From contig NZ_FOTQ01000001.1 in the NCBI RefSeq assembly GCF_900114635.1, forward strand, positions 496,001-560,000: a DNA stretch of 64,000 nt, read 5' to 3'. Shown here in pieces: positions 17,241-63,303 of this stretch. The stretch is from Shimia aestuarii. GTDB lineage: Bacteria; Pseudomonadota; Alphaproteobacteria; Rhodobacterales; Rhodobacteraceae. Positions within the stretch are counted from its first letter, which is position 1; the number at the start of each line of letters is the position of its first letter. The notes below the pieces were generated by a model, which did no database searches, was not told the DNA's origin, and saw nothing but the letters and a program-made list of their open reading frames with translations. Position numbers and translations under genes: made by a program.

Positions 17241-17371
17241 CTACCCCGCAAACCACGATTTGATCCAGATCGTGTGACACATCCGGGGAACATGAGACAC
17301 TAAATGCAATCGCCCCGGCGCAGCCCCGCGCCGGAGCTTGGGAGAGATTTGCCCATCATCGGGAGGAGACC

Positions 17372-18985
17372 ATGAACAAAATCTTCGAAATTCCGCTCTA
17401 CGCTTACGAGCGCAGCCCGGATCAGGACGCCCAGACGCCGGTTCGGCGCAAGGTCGTCATCATCGGCGCCGGCCCCATCGGTCTTGGCGCGGCCATCGAC
17501 CTCGCCCAGCAGGGCGTCGAAGTTGTCATTCTCGACGACAACGACAAGGTCAGCTTCGGAAGCCGCGCGGTCTGCTACGCCAAACGCCCGCTAGAAATAC
17601 TTGATCGTCTGGGCTGTGGTCAGCCGATGGTCGACAAGGGTGTTGAATGGAACATCGGCAAGGTCTTCTTTGACGACCGCCAGGTCTATGACTTCAACCT
17701 GCTGCCCGAAGACGGCCACCAGCGCCCGGCCTTCATCAACCTTCAGCAGTATTACTTCGAAGAATACATGGTGAACCGCGTCCGCGAACTGCAGGCCGCT
17801 GGCGCACCGATCGAAATCCGTGGCCGCAACAAGGTCGAGGCGATTGGCACCCATGACGATCACGTAACCCTCGAAGTGGACACGCCCGAAGGCGCCTACA
17901 CGCTCGAAGCCGAATGGCTGATCGCCTGTGATGGCGCCAATTCCCCGGCCCGCCGCATGCTCGGCCTCGACTTTGTGGGCCGCGTTTTTGAGGACAACTT
18001 CCTGATTGCCGACGTTATCATGGAAGCGGAATTCCCGACCGAGCGCTGGTTCTGGTTCGATCCGCCCTTCAACAAGGGTCAATCCGCGCTGCTCCACAAA
18101 CAGCCCGACAATGTCTGGCGCATCGACCTGCAACTGGGCTGGGACATCGACAAGGAACGCGAAAAGCGCCCCGAGAACGTGATCCCGCGTCTCAAGCAGA
18201 TGCTGGGCGACGATGTCGAGTTCGAACTCGAATGGGTGTCGATCTACACCTTCCAGTGCCGCCGCATGGAACAGTTCCGCCATGGCCGCGTGCTCTTTGC
18301 CGGCGATGCCGCGCACCAGGTGTCGCCATTCGGCGCCCGTGGCGCAAACTCGGGCCTTCAGGACACCGATAACCTGTGCTGGAAGCTCAAGCTTGTCATG
18401 GACGGCAAGGCGCCCGAATCGCTGCTCGACAGCTACGACATGGAGCGTATCCACGGCGCGGATGAGAACATTCTCAACTCCTCGCGCTCGACCGATTTCA
18501 TCACGCCCAAGTCCGACATGAGCCGCATCCTGCGCGACGCTGTTCTGGACCTGTCCGAACATTATTCCTTTGCCCGCCCGCTGGTGAACTCGGGCCGCCT
18601 TTCGGTGCCCTGCACCTATGACGGTTCGCCGCTCAACTCGGCCGATGCGCTGCTTGACGGCCCGGCCCGCACCCGGCCCGGCTCGCCCTGCCCGGATGCG
18701 CCGCTGGGGGATGATTTCCTGCTTCCCAAGCTGGGCGACAAGTTCATCCTGCTCACCATTGATGCCGATGCCCCCGACAGCTTCGAGGAAGACGGGGTCG
18801 AAGTCACCCGGCTGGCCCTCTCGGTCAAGGATGACGCCTCGCTCGAACTCAAGCGCCGCTACCTTGGCGAAAATGACAGCGCCGTCTACCTGATACGCCC
18901 GGATCAGCACGTCGCCGCCCGTCGCGCCAGCTTTGACGAAGCCCAGTTCCGCACCGCGCTGCGCCGCGCAACCGGCAAGGAGTAA
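17372..18985 (+). CDS. FAD-dependent aromatic hydroxylase (MhpA/PheA-like group A monooxygenase)
   Basis: This 537-residue group A flavoprotein monooxygenase has an FAD-binding GxGxxG motif VVIIGAGPIGLGAAIDLAQ near residue 29, the family DG segment LIACDGANSPARRMLGL near residue 185, and GRVLFAGDAAHQVSPFGARG near residue 306. A C-terminal thioredoxin-like extension follows, as in MhpA and phenol hydroxylases. Such enzymes add one oxygen to a hydroxylated ring using NAD(P)H and O2. In the hmg operon a plausible job is making homogentisate from a hydroxyphenylacetate, but substrate identity is inference. It is preceded by GGGAGGAGACC and followed within five bases by the DUF2783 gene, whose ribosome-binding site lies in its 3' end. 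Confidence 0.87.
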   Translation: MNKIFEIPLYAYERSPDQDAQTPVRRKVVIIGAGPIGLGAAIDLAQQGVEVVILDDNDKVSFGSRAVCYAKRPLEILDRLGCGQPMVDKGVEWNIGKVFFDDRQVYDFNLLPEDGHQRPAFINLQQYYFEEYMVNRVRELQAAGAPIEIRGRNKVEAIGTHDDHVTLEVDTPEGAYTLEAEWLIACDGANSPARRMLGLDFVGRVFEDNFLIADVIMEAEFPTERWFWFDPPFNKGQSALLHKQPDNVWRIDLQLGWDIDKEREKRPENVIPRLKQMLGDDVEFELEWVSIYTFQCRRMEQFRHGRVLFAGDAAHQVSPFGARGANSGLQDTDNLCWKLKLVMDGKAPESLLDSYDMERIHGADENILNSSRSTDFITPKSDMSRILRDAVLDLSEHYSFARPLVNSGRLSVPCTYDGSPLNSADALLDGPARTRPGSPCPDAPLGDDFLLPKLGDKFILLTIDADAPDSFEEDGVEVTRLALSVKDDASLELKRRYLGENDSAVYLIRPDQHVAARRASFDEAQFRTALRRATGKE

Positions 18986-42012: not shown

Positions 42013-43152
42013 ATGATGCGCACACGTGCCGCCGTGGCTTTGGAAGCCGGAAAACCACTTGAAATCATGGAGGTGAACCTCGAAGGCCCCAAGGCAGGCG
42101 AAGTGCTGATCGAGGTCAAGGCCACCGGCATCTGCCATACCGATGAATTCACCCGTTCGGGCGCCGATCCCGAGGGGCTGTTCCCGTCCATTCTTGGCCA
42201 CGAGGGCGCGGGCATCGTCCTGGAAGTGGGCGAAGGCGTCACCACCCTTAAACCCGGCGATCACGTGATCCCGCTCTACACGCCGGAATGCCGCGAATGC
42301 CATTCCTGCCTGTCGGGCAAGACCAACCTCTGCACCGCCATTCGCGGCACCCAAGGTCAGGGCCTCATGCCCGACGGCACCACCCGCTTTTCGATGCTCG
42401 ATGGCACGCCGATCTATCACTACATGGGCTGCTCCACCTTCGCCAACCACACCGTCCTGCCCGAGATTGCGCTGGCCAAGGTGCGCGACGACGCGCCTTT
42501 CGACAAGATCTGCTATATCGGCTGCGGCGTGACCACCGGCATCGGCGCGGTGATCAACACCGCCGGGGTCGAAATCGGCTCGACGGCGGCCGTGTTCGGT
42601 CTGGGGGGCATCGGTCTCAACGTGATCCAGGGCCTGCGCATGGCCGGGGCCGACATGATCATTGGCATCGACCTCAATGACGACAAGGCCGAGATGGCCA
42701 AGAAGTTCGGCATGACCCATTTCGTGAACCCCTCGAAACTGCCCGAGGGCCAATCTGTCACCGAGGCGATCGTCGAACTCACCAAGACCGAGAAAGACGC
42801 TTTCGGTGGCGTGGATTACTCCTTTGACGCCACCGGCAACGTGCAGGTCATGCGCGACGCGCTGGAATGCTCGCACCGAGGCTGGGGCGTGTCGGTTATC
42901 ATCGGCGTGGCGCCGGCGGGGGCCGAAATCTCGACCCGCCCGTTCCAACTTGTGACGGGCCGCGTCTGGAAAGGCACCGCCTTTGGCGGCGCCAAGGGCC
43001 GCACCGATGTGCCCAAATTTGTCGACTGGTACATGGACGGCAAGATCGAAATCGACGACATGATCACGCACAAGCTCACACTGGACCAGATCAACGAAGG
43101 CTTTGATTTGATGCACGAAGGCAAGTCGATCCGCGCCGTGGTCGAGTTCTGA
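42013..43152 (+). CDS. S-(hydroxymethyl)glutathione dehydrogenase (class III ADH)
   Basis: A 379-residue zinc alcohol dehydrogenase that oxidises the glutathione adduct of formaldehyde and also reduces S-nitrosoglutathione. Catalytic zinc ligands are Cys in TGICHTDEF, His in LGHEGAGIV and Cys in IGCGVTTG. The structural zinc site is [16 protein letters not shown]. The Rossmann motif [14 protein letters not shown] lies near residue 196. GGAGG at the right distance serves ATG 42013 or 42016. A terminator follows at 43177. S-formylglutathione hydrolase, often adjacent, is not here. Confidence 0.95.
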
Positions 43153-44720: not shown

Positions 44721-45794
44721 TCAGGCCATCCCCCCCTTGACCAGCCCTTCGGCGATCCGCGCATAGGCCTTGGCCATATCGCTGTCGCCAGCGGCGATCG
44801 GCGTGCCCCCATCCCCGGCCAGCCGCGTATCAAGGTCAATCGGCAATGCGCCCAACAGCGGCACACCAATCTTCTCGGCTTCGGCGGCAACCCCGCCCTG
44901 GCCAAAGATATGCGCCTCGTGGCCGCAGTTCGGACAATGGAAAACGCTCATGTTTTCAATAAGTCCCAGCACCGGCGTCTTGAGCTGATCAAACATGCCC
45001 AGCGCCTTGCGCGCATCCAGAAGCGCCACGTCCTGCGGGGTCGACACAACGATCGCCCCGGTCAGTTCCGTCTTTTGGCACAGGGTCAATTGCACATCCC
45101 CTGTGCCCGGCGGCAGGTCCACGATCAGCACGTCCAACTCGCCCCACTGCACCTGCGTGAGCATCTGCTGCAACGCACCCATGAGCATCGGACCTCGCCA
45201 GACCACCGGCTTGTCCTCATCCAACATGAAACCCAGGGACATGATCGTCACACCGTGGCTGTGCAGCGGCAGGATGGTCTTGCCGTCAGGTGACGCGGGG
45301 CGTTTGTTCACACCCATCATGCGTGGCTGGCTTGGGCCGTAAATATCAGCGTCCAGCAGACCGACCTTGCGCCCCTGCCTGGCCAGCGCGACGGCCAGGT
45401 TCGAGGACACGGTGGACTTGCCGACGCCCCCCTTTCCCGATCCGACGGCGAGGATACGCTTCACGCCGGGGACTTGCATCGGGCCGGCTTGCGGCTTGGG
45501 ATGTCCACCGATCTTTAGATTGGGCGCAGGCTTGGCCGCAGGCGCCGCTTCATGGGCCGTCAAGGCAACCTGAACCGACGTCACCCCGTCGATCTTGCCC
45601 ACCAGCTCCTCCGCCGCACGACGCAGCGGCTCCATCTGACGTGCAACCGCCGGAGAAGCCGCCTCGATGACGAAACGCACCGCGCCTTCATCAATCGTCA
45701 ACGCCCTTATCATATCACGAGAGACCAGATCGCCTCCGTCCGGCAACGCCAGACGGCTCAGACCTTCAAGAATCACCGCCTTTTCGACACCCAT
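44721..45794 (-). CDS. Mrp/ApbC-type iron-sulfur carrier ATPase
   Basis: A 357-residue P-loop ATPase that carries and transfers Fe-S clusters. Domains: N-terminal MIP18-like domain (1-85), then the ATPase with deviant Walker [20 protein letters not shown] near residue 120, [14 protein letters not shown], and [14 protein letters not shown]. The cluster-binding CxxC is in [15 protein letters not shown] near residue 290. The start at 45794 follows AAGGAGAGAAAA; a longer reading to 45851 adds a basic non-conserved leader. The gene diverges from the DUF1127-CcsR locus. Confidence 0.94.
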
Positions 45795-45963
45795 TTTTCT
45801 CTCCTTTTTCTGCACATGCAAAATGCATCTCTTTTTTGACCGCCCGGACAATTCACAACTATTTTACCAACTATTACGTCTAGTTGCGTATATTTGCAGC
45901 ATAACGTGAATTGACCCTACGTCCCCATTCCCTCAGTGCATAGCAGCTTTGCGAAGCCGTCCA

Positions 45964-45990
45964 TTGTGCACCTGCAGCATGCCCCTATAT
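45964..45990 (+). promoter_or_regulatory. Heat-shock-type promoter of the DUF1127-CcsR locus
   Basis: A CCCCTATAT element (45982-45990) matches the -10 region of sigma-32 promoters. TTGTGC (45964-45969) about 15-16 bases upstream is a weaker -35. A start near 45997 would give a 40-base leader. In Rhodobacter the homologous locus is driven by RpoH-type sigma factors. Confidence 0.5.
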
Positions 45991-46037: not shown

Positions 46038-46253
46038 ATGGCATACGCTGCAAACCAAACCGCAGTTGCTTCGGCATCCGGGCGCGGCCTTTCCACCCTC
46101 TTCGCCGATCTGGTCGCACGCTTTGAGCGTCACCGCAAGTTCCGTCAGACCTTTGCCGAGCTGAACGCTCTGTCTGATCGCGAACTGGCTGACCTCGGTA
46201 TGAGCCGGTCGATGCTGCGTCGGGTCGCGATGGAGGCCGCGGCAGAACATTAA
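46038..46253 (+). CDS. DUF1127 small protein heading the CcsR array
   Basis: A 71-residue basic protein whose C-terminal half FRQTFAELNALSDRELADLG is the DUF1127 (YjiS-like) motif. The N-terminal Ala/Thr-rich part and FADLVARFERHRK complete it. In Rhodobacter sphaeroides a DUF1127 protein (CcaF1) encoded just upstream of the CcsR RNAs binds RNA and acts in their maturation; the identical arrangement here argues for the same role. ATG 46038 gives a normal-length protein; the longer frame upstream crosses the promoter. The ribosome-binding site (AAAGGG) is weak. Confidence 0.88.
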   Translation: MAYAANQTAVASASGRGLSTLFADLVARFERHRKFRQTFAELNALSDRELADLGMSRSMLRRVAMEAAAEH

Positions 46254-46260
46254 GGTTTCG

Positions 46261-46329
46261 GAGAGCCCTCTCCTCCCTCGGGCTTTCCACATCTGCGGCG
46301 ATGTCTCCTCCTCCCTGACATTGCCGCAG
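46261..46329 (+). ncRNA. CcsR-like (cuckoo) small RNA, copy 1
   Basis: Two hairpins. Stem GAGAGCCC/GGGCTTTC has an 11-base loop TCTCCTCCCTC. Stem CTGCGGCGATGT/ACATTGCCGCAG (12 bp, one G-U) has loop CTCCTCCTCCCTG. Both loops expose CTCCTCCC, which mimics the 16S anti-Shine-Dalgarno. It starts seven bases after the DUF1127 stop, so it is cut from the same transcript. Spacer hairpin GGACC-CAAC-GGTCC follows at 46338. Confidence 0.85.
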
Positions 46330-46359
46330 CAAAATACGGACCCAACGGTCCACCGGGAT

Positions 46360-46437
46360 CAAGGCAACCCTCTCCTCCTCCCTGGGGTGCCTTGAGACTA
46401 GAGCGGCGGCACCTCTCCTCCTCCCTGGTGTCGCCGC
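46360..46437 (+). ncRNA. CcsR-like small RNA, copy 2
   Basis: Stem CAAGGCAACCC/GGGGTGCCTTG (46360-46370, 46384-46394) and stem GCGGCGGCACC/GGTGTCGCCGC (46403-46413, 46427-46437). Both have the 13-base loop TCTCCTCCTCCCT. It forms the first of two near-identical units of 112 bases. Spacer hairpin GGGCC-AAGC-GGCCC follows at 46449. Confidence 0.9.
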
Positions 46438-46471
46438 GCCAGAATATCGGGCCAAGCGGCCCAAACGGAAT

Positions 46472-46549
46472 CAAGGTGACCCTCTCCTCCTCCCTGGGGC
46501 GCCTTGAGACTAGAGCGGCGGCACCTCTCCTCCTCCCTGGTGTCGCCGC
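46472..46549 (+). ncRNA. CcsR-like small RNA, copy 3
   Basis: Stem CAAGGTGACCC/GGGGCGCCTTG (46472-46482, 46496-46506) and stem GCGGCGGCACC/GGTGTCGCCGC (46515-46525, 46539-46549), both with loop TCTCCTCCTCCCT. Nearly identical to copy 2, with a few changes in the first stem. Spacer hairpin GGGTC-AAAC-GGCCC follows at 46561. Confidence 0.9.
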
Positions 46550-46582
46550 GCCAGAACATCGGGTCAAACGGCCCACCGGAAT

Positions 46583-46664
46583 CAAGGCACCCTTCCTCCT
46601 CCCTGAGTGTCTTGAAAAAAGAAACGGCGACGCGCTCCTCCCTTTGCGTCGCCGTTTTTCTTTT
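46583..46664 (+). ncRNA. CcsR-like small RNA, copy 4, with terminator
   Basis: Stem CAAGGCAC/GTGTCTTG with loop containing TTCCTCCTCCCT, then stem AAACGGCGACGC/GCGTCGCCGTTT (46622-46633, 46646-46657) with loop GCTCCTCCCTTT. The second stem runs into TTTTTCTTTT and is a rho-independent terminator for the whole locus, with the CTCCTCCC motif placed in the terminator loop. Confidence 0.9.
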
Positions 46665-46677
46665 CCGAAGAGACCGC

Positions 46678-47307
46678 TCAAAGCTTGGCGCTTGGCCGCT
46701 CCTGGATGCGCGCGAACCAGTCCCGCGCGGCCGTGTGCTCATCGGGAAGCTTGCGCTTGATGACACGTGCAAAATCGCAAAAGACAAAGGCCGTGATATC
46801 GGCAAAGGTGAACCGCCCCGAGGCAAGGTAAGGACTCTCCTGCAAGCGCTGCTCCAACATATCGAAAAACACTCCCACCCGCGCATGACCGCGCTCGGCA
46901 AGCGCTTGTATTTGCTCATAATTTTCGGGCCCCGGCAGGGCCCGCCCCTTCATCGCAGGATGCGCATTGCGCAGCGCTTCGGCAATTGCCATGCCACCGT
47001 GAAATTCGCTCATCGCGTTCCACATCATGACCGACGCTTTTTCTTCGGCCCCGCCCCCCATCAGGGGCGGGTCGGGGAACACATCTTCGAGATAGGTGGC
47101 AATCGCGATATTCTCTCCCAGAACCTGCCCATCCTTGGTGATAAAGGTTGGCACGGTGGCACGCGGGTTTACGGCAAGGAATTCAGGCGACAACTGCTCC
47201 GCCTTGCTCATGTCGATATTGCGGGTCTCAATCTCGACCCCCTTTTCGGCGATGAACATCCGCGCCCGCCGCGGGCTAGGCGCCGTGCTGCAATCATAGA
47301 AAATCAT
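46678..47307 (-). CDS. Glutathione S-transferase family protein
   Basis: A 209-residue GST with an N-terminal thioredoxin-like domain (MIFYDCSTAPSPRRARMFIA; FLAVNPRATVPTFITKDG; the glutathione-contacting ENIAIATYLED) and an all-helical C-terminal domain with FTFADITAFVFCDFARV. Substrate unknown. GGAGGAGGACCAC gives a strong ribosome-binding site. Its stop lies 13 bases beyond the CcsR terminator run, and the two units converge. Confidence 0.92.
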   Translation of the reverse strand: MIFYDCSTAPSPRRARMFIAEKGVEIETRNIDMSKAEQLSPEFLAVNPRATVPTFITKDGQVLGENIAIATYLEDVFPDPPLMGGGAEEKASVMMWNAMSEFHGGMAIAEALRNAHPAMKGRALPGPENYEQIQALAERGHARVGVFFDMLEQRLQESPYLASGRFTFADITAFVFCDFARVIKRKLPDEHTAARDWFARIQERPSAKL

Positions 47308-57763: not shown

Positions 57764-57838
57764 GCGGGCGTAGCTCAGGGGTAGAGCATAACCTTGCCAA
57801 GGTTAGGGTCGGGCGTTCGAATCGCCTCGCCCGCTCCA
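57764..57838 (+). tRNA. tRNA-Gly(GCC), copy 1
   Basis: Acceptor GCGGGCG pairs with CGCCCGC, the D-loop is TAGCTCAGGGGTAGAGCA, anticodon loop TTGCCAA gives anticodon GCC, the T-loop is TTCGAAT, discriminator T, and CCA is encoded. It reads GGC and GGT codons. Confidence 0.98.
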
Positions 57839-57992: not shown

Positions 57993-58067
57993 GCGGGCGT
58001 AGCTCAGGGGTAGAGCATAACCTTGCCAAGGTTAGGGTCGGGCGTTCGAATCGCCTCGCCCGCTCCA
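57993..58067 (+). tRNA. tRNA-Gly(GCC), copy 2
   Basis: Identical in sequence to the copy at 57764, with the same encoded CCA. The 20 bases upstream (CACGCCTCACCTAAGGATGC) are nearly identical to those before copy 1, so the duplication included the leader. Confidence 0.98.
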
Positions 58068-63096: not shown

Positions 63097-63303
63097 ATGA
63101 CCCTTCTCAGCACAATCGGCCGTTCGTTCGGCATTTCGTTTGATACCAGCGCCATCACCAAAGCTGCCGCCGTTATGCGCCAGCGTCGTGCGCTGAACCG
63201 GCTTGATGCTGCTGCGCTGAAGGATCTGGGCCTGACCCGTGCGGATGTGGAAGCAGAACTTAAGCGCCCGGTCTGGGATGTCCCGACCAACTGGCGCGGC
63301 TAA
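63097..63303 (+). CDS. DUF1127 small protein
   Basis: A 68-residue basic protein with the DUF1127 core RALNRLDAAALKDLGLTRAD following RQRRALNRL, and a WDVPTNWRG tail. Unlike the copy at 46038 it is not followed by CCTCCTCC hairpins. AGGAAAGGAACACGCC gives the ribosome-binding site. Divergent from LysR with two shared operators, so probably a LysR target. Confidence 0.88.
   Translation: MTLLSTIGRSFGISFDTSAITKAAAVMRQRRALNRLDAAALKDLGLTRADVEAELKRPVWDVPTNWRG

Follow-up and report, generated by a model that had tools for sequence, protein, structure and literature searches.

What is the function of an array of eight hairpins that carry the same short motif in their loops, directly behind a gene for a small DUF1127 protein, in the marine bacterium Shimia aestuarii? 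The array lies in the 64-kb window analysed here (the whole stretch of DNA, part of a 4.23-Mb source genome in 27 contigs). We read it as a CcsR/"cuckoo" (CIN1) operon, in which one promoter would supply both the messenger RNA (mRNA) of the DUF1127 protein and four small RNAs with anti-Shine-Dalgarno (anti-SD) loops that silence selected mRNAs, and we give this joint reading a probability of roughly 0.88.

The motif CTCCTCCC occurs eight times within 373 bases (46270-46642), always on the plus strand and each time in a hairpin loop, with starts at 46270, 46308, 46375, 46418, 46487, 46530, 46596 and 46635. On both strands together, the window holds 10 matches against 2.81 expected, a number reached in 0 of 100 shuffles. 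When positions 46251-46670 are folded, the mean unpaired probability is at least 0.98 for all eight motifs, in agreement with the original prediction, made from the sequence alone, that eight hairpins expose the motif. The spacing of the motifs alternates between 35-43 bases within a pair and 67-69 between pairs, which yields four two-hairpin units (46260-46329, 46359-46437, 46471-46549 and 46582-46659), each with a match to the Rfam family RF02791 (CcsR1); the proposed grouping into four two-hairpin units is thus also borne out. The genome contains four copies of the paired motif, all at the array, and none of the reversed control pattern. Hairpin 8 (46620-46659) with the T's behind it looks like an intrinsic terminator by sequence and fold, as had been proposed for the last hairpin. 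The elements of the array, all on the plus strand, are the following.

46260-46288, plus strand: unit 1, hairpin 1, with loop motif 46270-46277 (fold and stem analysis)
46293-46329, plus strand: unit 1, hairpin 2, with loop motif 46308-46315 (CcsR1 match 46254-46332)
46338-46351, plus strand: mini-hairpin GGACC-CAAC-GGTCC in the spacer of units 1 and 2 (fold and spacer analysis)
46359-46395, plus strand: unit 2, hairpin 3, with loop motif 46375-46382 (fold and stem analysis)
46403-46437, plus strand: unit 2, hairpin 4, with loop motif 46418-46425 (CcsR1 match 46356-46442)
46449-46462, plus strand: mini-hairpin GGGCC-AAGC-GGCCC in the spacer of units 2 and 3 (fold and spacer analysis)
46471-46507, plus strand: unit 3, hairpin 5, with loop motif 46487-46494 (fold and stem analysis)
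46515-46549, plus strand: unit 3, hairpin 6, with loop motif 46530-46537 (CcsR1 match 46468-46554)
46561-46574, plus strand: mini-hairpin GGGTC-AAAC-GGCCC in the spacer of units 3 and 4 (fold and spacer analysis)
46582-46615, plus strand: unit 4, hairpin 7, with loop motif 46596-46603 (fold and stem analysis)
46620-46664, plus strand: unit 4, hairpin 8 and a terminator-like T run, with loop motif 46635-46642 (CcsR1 match 46579-46660)

Two features go beyond what had been predicted: the three mini-hairpins between the units and a conserved promoter element, described below. Across the genus (here the GTDB genus of the source, which includes genomes matching Shimia haliotis and Thiosulfatihalobacter marinus), 75 of the 79 spacers between units contain a GC mini-hairpin of this strength, compared with 32 of 395 shuffled spacers; it may mark a processing site. 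Two earlier claims need to be narrowed. That the loops are equal and the stems unequal is true only in part: hairpins 3 and 5 are separated by one compensatory change (A-T to G-C) and one from C-G to T-G, but hairpins 4 and 6 have identical stems, and units 2 and 3 are 93% identical overall. The usual tail of 16S ribosomal RNA contains the core CCUCC(U), and only this core is common to the tail and the motif, which had been described as a copy of the 16S anti-SD. The assembly itself gave no 16S match, in a search that found 16S in only 9 of 14 control genomes.

The assignment to a family rests on covariance models and on gene order. The RF02791 model matches all four units, as the original prediction would have it (E values of 1.7e-10, 2.5e-10, 3.6e-9 and 8.5e-6), with scores of 31.9-47.7 bits, compared with the gathering score of 65.3 bits; a search of the window with Rfam at gathering threshold returned two transfer RNAs (tRNAs) only. 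RF02344 (ar14) reaches at best 54.2 bits at the array, below its threshold of 58.8 bits. At an E value of 0.001 or less, 35 of 60 genomes (own included) have an RF02791 match, and these include every one of the 24 other genus members searched. The gathering score is reached in none of the 60; one of 14 control genomes, that of Thermus composti, also gives a sub-threshold match. Among nine related loci that were scanned, two from other genera (L109 and L110) pass RF02791 with their first unit only (94.1 and 106.2 bits), while their remaining units score 39-56 bits and the Shimia units 32-48. RF02791 therefore describes one type of unit and not the array. The gene order at both loci is the same as in the window: a divergent apbC gene, DUF1127 and the array. 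Two stretches of the array of Paracoccus limosus pass the ar14 threshold (64.1 and 59.9 bits). It should be noted, as a separate observation, that the two tRNA genes of the window (57764-57835 and 57993-58064) have equal scores and identical sequences and lie 157 bases apart.

The gene order had been equated with the CcsR1-4 locus of Rhodobacter, and this equation stands. In Rhodobacter sphaeroides, four CcsR RNAs lie behind ccaF1 (RSP_6037), a DUF1127 gene of 71 codons, under a single promoter recognised by RpoHI/RpoHII and before a 3' terminator; RNase E matures the RNAs, and CcaF1 binds RNA (PMC10253847; this and all other papers are cited here from excerpts). The cuckoo family, or CIN1 locus, which likewise joins DUF1127 genes to CcsR-like small RNAs in alphaproteobacteria (Reinkensmeier and Giegerich 2015, cited in PMC10253847), is described there with two to four hairpins, unlike the relatives found here, which carry up to 26 motifs per array. 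The Shimia units resemble CcsR1 in their two hairpins with CCUCCUCCC loops, as judged by the model matches, and differ in scoring below the gathering threshold and in the near identity of units 2 and 3. The ar14/NfeR1 RNA of Sinorhizobium meliloti has the same anti-SD loop motif, and a TGCA-N6-GCAT box, bound there by LsrB, lies upstream of it (PMC10746234), but it is a three-hairpin RNA. The genes around the array are the following.

44721-45851, minus strand: gene for an apbC/mrp-type iron-sulfur carrier P-loop NTPase, a divergent neighbour outside the RNA operon (conserved flank)
46038-46253, plus strand: DUF1127 protein of 71 amino acids, CcaF1-like (PF06568, E value 1.4e-13)
46678-47307, minus strand: glutathione S-transferase gene, on the other flank of the array

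By a script count, the first motif stands 15 bases past the stop codon of the DUF1127 gene, on the same strand. The apbC gene is upstream and divergent in all 25 loci of the genus, and the same holds for 41 of the 50 loci from elsewhere that have at least four motifs (duplicates included). As this neighbour is conserved, we assign the array to a known kind of system. That it is a CcsR/cuckoo (CIN1) locus is thus supported, with its units below the strict Rfam threshold.

How far such arrays extend was determined in a family sample of 198 Rhodobacteraceae genomes, one per genus and own included. Paired motifs were found in 160 of them, a few control matches occurring in some genomes. Within the genus, the motif count is eight in 19 of 25 arrays (own included), 10 in two, and 7, 9, 11 and 12 in a single array each; among the listed loci, which have at least four motifs each, the largest array has 26. 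This 26-motif array (L089, G213:C1:334949-335887) apparently repeats a three-hairpin unit instead of a two-hairpin one. Stems in the genus covary, with many double changes. Standard pairs fill 188 of 189 pair cells in the second hairpins of middle units (21 distinct rows, at most five pair types per position) and 291 of 304 in the first hairpins (38 distinct rows); as the hairpin finder seeks pairing, these counts lean towards pairing, which does not account for the variety of pair types. A finder score of 7 is attained by 197 of 211 stems. The same 13 letters are shared by 128 of 211 motif-anchored loops, a count that is not independent evidence of loop conservation given that the finder was anchored on TCCTCC. 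General concerted evolution of the units was considered and rejected: middle units of one array resemble each other only slightly more (0.82, n = 38) than do units in equivalent positions of different genomes (0.78, n = 610), and concerted evolution is therefore clear only for some species (L016, L024, L025 and L031). In Thiosulfatihalobacter marinus (L031/L035), an array of 12 motifs has middle units that are 99-100% identical, which suggests a recent tandem amplification.

A conserved control element lies in front of the DUF1127 gene and comprises the following parts.

45937-45951, plus strand: upstream operator-like site TGCATAGCAGCTTTG, the reverse complement of which agrees with the VtlR motif in 12 of 15 letters (sequence comparison)
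45964-45980, plus strand: promoter core TTGTGCACCTGCAGCAT, made up of the TTG of the -35 element and a TGCA-N6-GCAT box (sequence comparison)
45985-45990, plus strand: presumed -10 element CTATAT, as TTG-N18-CTATAT (sequence and conservation in the genus)

In the alignment of the genus, TTGTGCA-N3-GCAGCAT followed by CCTATAT is nearly invariant before DUF1127 (L015 also has the element); outside the genus the -10 element is less conserved. Among 75 loci of the family with arrays, 65 have 13 or 14 of the 14 core letters, compared with 1 of 1500 letter-shuffled sequences, and at least one copy of TGCA-N6-GCAT is present in 61 (0.35% of shuffles) and at least two in 24 (none of the shuffles). The upstream site, commonly TGCAT(A/G)GCAGCATTG, resembles on its other strand the VtlR motif CAATGCAGCCATGCA. 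The best match to this motif reaches at least 12 of 15 letters in 55 of the 75 loci (42 of 1500 Markov controls) and at least 11 in 69 (288 of 1500); it is 13-14 in 43 loci, and 12 at the window's own site. Scrambled 15-mers (n = 200) attain 11 letters in 6.3 loci on average and in 34 at most. In 63 of the 69 loci with at least 11 letters, the site is on the same strand and exactly 27-28 bases before the core.

The exact composite pattern was then sought across the family sample, in a test for which the arrays did not select the loci. With a gap of 11-14 bases allowed between GCATnGCnGCnTTG and TTGTGCAnnnGCAGCA, it was found in 100 of the 198 genomes (own included), once in 96 and twice in 4 (104 places), and the reversed-pattern control was found in 0. 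Of these places 30 were fetched; all have a gap of 12 or 13. Two or more TCCTCC-type motifs follow within 900 bases at 28 of them, and a DUF1127 signature is seen at 24. The front control element is unusually well conserved, and it looks like one known from rhizobia and Brucella.

Within the genus, the core TTGTGCAnnnGCAGCAT, with at most one mismatch, also precedes serC-, pntA-, peroxiredoxin-, crotonyl-CoA-reductase- and apbC-like genes (named by reading their translations), which have only 6-9 of the 15 letters of the upstream site. It was seen about 80 bases before serC-like frames and about 65 before pntA-like frames, without the upstream site (L141, L143, L152, L154, L155, L162; L137, L151, L159, L163). 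We therefore rejected the core alone as a CcsR-specific signal, and it may be recognised more widely than at CcsR operons. The other three DUF1127 genes of the genome have best VtlR-like scores of 11, 12 and 8 of 15 and lack the core, which gives no support for a link to VtlR at these genes. A second DUF1127 domain in the window (63172-63252, 37.8 bits) is one of the four in the genome; in the stretch checked for it, the best VtlR-like site has only 8 of 15 letters and the best core only 9 of 14.

Which regulator might read this element? In Brucella, VtlR regulates three DUF1127 genes and the small RNA AbcR2, and its motif is given as CAATGCAGCCATGCA (PMC12595884). LysR-type regulators of the VtlR/LsrB regulon, known from Brucella, Agrobacterium and Sinorhizobium, drive DUF1127 genes and a small RNA; a CAATGCAGCCATGCA-like site with at least 12 of 15 letters precedes CcsR operons at 55 of the 75 loci here. 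In S. meliloti, LsrB activates NfeR1 from a box at -72 to -60 of its promoter, and the TGCA-N6-GCAT of the Shimia type has the form of that box (PMC10746234). Since VtlR and LsrB control such genes, a LysR-type regulator, DUF1127 and anti-SD small RNAs may form a single old circuit of the Alphaproteobacteria, common to Brucella/Sinorhizobium and Rhodobacter/Shimia, in which the DUF1127-CcsR operon of many Rhodobacteraceae would be driven via a two-site operator by a LysR-type regulator of VtlR/LsrB-like specificity. We regard the odds of this proposal as about even. VtlR has been called a conserved regulator of Alphaproteobacteria (PMC7486931). Speaking against the circuit, LsrB is reported to be unique to Rhizobiales, in an operon with trxB (PMC11975290), whereas beside the single trxB match of the Shimia genome, the only site searched, there is no LysR gene but Lrp-type and adenylate-cyclase-like genes (by translation reading). 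Text searches of the literature, which did not reach the primary CcsR, CcaF1 and cuckoo papers, gave no report of the two-part element.

Candidate targets come from matches to the loop complement at ribosome-binding sites. The arrangement GGGAGGAG-N3-12-ATG occurs 22 times in the genome, compared with 5 for the reversed pattern, and at 17 of the 21 distinct sites an open frame begins that runs for at least 86 amino acids. Among these frames, NCBIfam models score above cut-off for paaA and a DctP TRAP binding protein and below it for a paaE-like frame (just under) and an acsA fragment at a contig end; by translation reading, others include a second TRAP binding protein, NhaA, a feruloyl-CoA-synthase-like enzyme and a P450. 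A gene for a coxS-like [2Fe-2S] subunit, with no NCBIfam model above cut-off, carries GGGAGGAGCCA-ATG in every one of 20 close orthologs (own included), in contrast to the variable bases farther upstream. The 28 fetched loci also include two that read GGGAGGAC and six more distant ones in which no start was found. Upstream conservation is 0.83 for the coxS-like gene and 0.51 and 0.55 for two neighbouring paa gene starts, in a comparison that is rough, as other frames, mostly judged to be coding DNA, reach up to 0.91. These data fit targeting without proving it. In the window itself, GGGAGGAGACCATG (17361-17374) is a perfect 8-base complement of the CcsR loops and precedes an FAD monooxygenase-like frame that starts at 17372 (named by translation reading), which is a possible target.

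The sequence, loops, covarying stems, synteny, promoter element and target-site conservation are established in this analysis. From them we infer that the locus is transcribed and its RNA processed, that the loops pair with mRNAs in the cell, that the protein binds RNA and that a regulator takes part, as follows. A single promoter at about 45964-45990 would give a transcript with the DUF1127 mRNA and the array at its 3' end, stopping at the last-hairpin terminator. This precursor would be cut by an endonuclease, probably RNase E, which does so in R. sphaeroides; the four products, about 80-100 bases long, would each present two CUCCUCCC loops. These loops would base-pair with Shine-Dalgarno sequences of the GGGAGGAG type on particular mRNAs, many of which serve the uptake and oxidation of carbon compounds, and block translation; the four tandem RNAs would thus probably switch off mRNAs by covering their ribosome-binding sites. 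The DUF1127 protein would bind RNA and tune maturation and turnover, and the two-part operator suggests that, in addition to the sigma factor, a LysR-type regulator acts here whose DNA specificity is like that of VtlR/LsrB. In known systems, CcsR of R. sphaeroides targets flhR (PMC8307010), and NfeR1 uses redundant anti-SD loops to block the translation of ntrB (PMC10746234).

Several points weigh against this operon reading, beginning with the failure of every unit to attain the RF02791 gathering score (best 47.7 bits). Whether DUF1127 proteins bind RNA is disputed: for YjiS, a DUF1127 protein, no evidence of RNA binding was found, and DUF1127 proteins of Agrobacterium bind PhoR, a defect in which CcaF1 can complement (PMC12501420). 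Moreover, GGGAGGAG by itself makes a good, plain Shine-Dalgarno sequence; its enrichment and conservation therefore need not mean targeting by small RNAs. Among the genus, the 8-mer is retained before paaA in 8 of 24 rows (8 of 12 if only rows with a matched start are counted) and before acsA in 12 of 28 (11 of 18 on the same basis), so that both are no more than partly conserved as targets. It is quite conceivable, if not the explanation we favour, that the GGGAGGAG sites serve as strong ribosome-binding sites of the ordinary kind and that CcsR does not target them: they fit the consensus and vary at paaA and acsA, and the two observations on the other side, the 22 sites against 5 and the invariant 8-mer of the coxS-like gene, do not separate selection for translation from selection for a small RNA. 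A neighbouring possibility is that the array is mainly a sponge, whose many identical loops sequester some RNA-binding protein (the DUF1127 protein or Hfq) or Shine-Dalgarno sequences generally, with no specific mRNA. Variable copy number (up to 26 motifs in one array, among loci with at least four) and the seemingly interchangeable loops, of which 128 of 211 in the genus have the same 13 letters, would suit it; the named target of CcsR in R. sphaeroides (PMC8307010), the silencing of ntrBC by the related NfeR1 (PMC10746234) and the unchanged 8-base site in the coxS-like orthologs make it unlikely.

The promoter element could be of RpoH type or housekeeping only, its extra conserved bases serving sigma recognition with no separate regulator. 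We consider this rather improbable, as the conserved block reaches about 27 bases upstream of the -35 element over a fixed gap of 12-13 bases and its GCAGCA part lies in the spacer, where no sigma factor is known to need fixed letters; it gains from the high conservation of TTG at -35 in RpoHI/RpoHII promoters (PMC3441632) and from CTATAT, which also belongs to the alphaproteobacterial RpoD signature (PMC10746234). That the eight hairpins are a non-functional repeat, or structure of a long 3' untranslated region that yields no processed RNAs, is very hard to reconcile with covarying stems, synteny, Rfam matches and a gene order shared with the small RNAs studied in R. sphaeroides (PMC10253847).

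One further gene of the neighbourhood deserves mention. About 3 kb from the array lies a gene for S-(hydroxymethyl)glutathione dehydrogenase (42013-43152, 611 bits, cut-off 544), and in R. sphaeroides CcsR is reported to influence C1 metabolism and the glutathione pool via FlhR (PMC10253847, PMC8307010). We rejected it as a target, as no GGGAGGAG stands just before its start. It was seen beside the array in 0 of 25 genus loci, a weak negative, most of them reaching only 1.5 kb from the RF02791 match; such a gene was found near the array in L035 and L057.

Based on these findings, the array extends a known family of small RNAs to marine relatives of Shimia, with a variation of 7-12 motifs in the genus and up to 26 in the family. 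We consider the composite operator, present in about half of 198 genera, to be more important than the array itself. It would predict a transcription factor for a well-studied stress locus of small RNAs, the promoter of which is described in the cited excerpts only in terms of sigma factors, and it would link the anti-SD small RNAs of Rhodobacter with those of Rhizobium.
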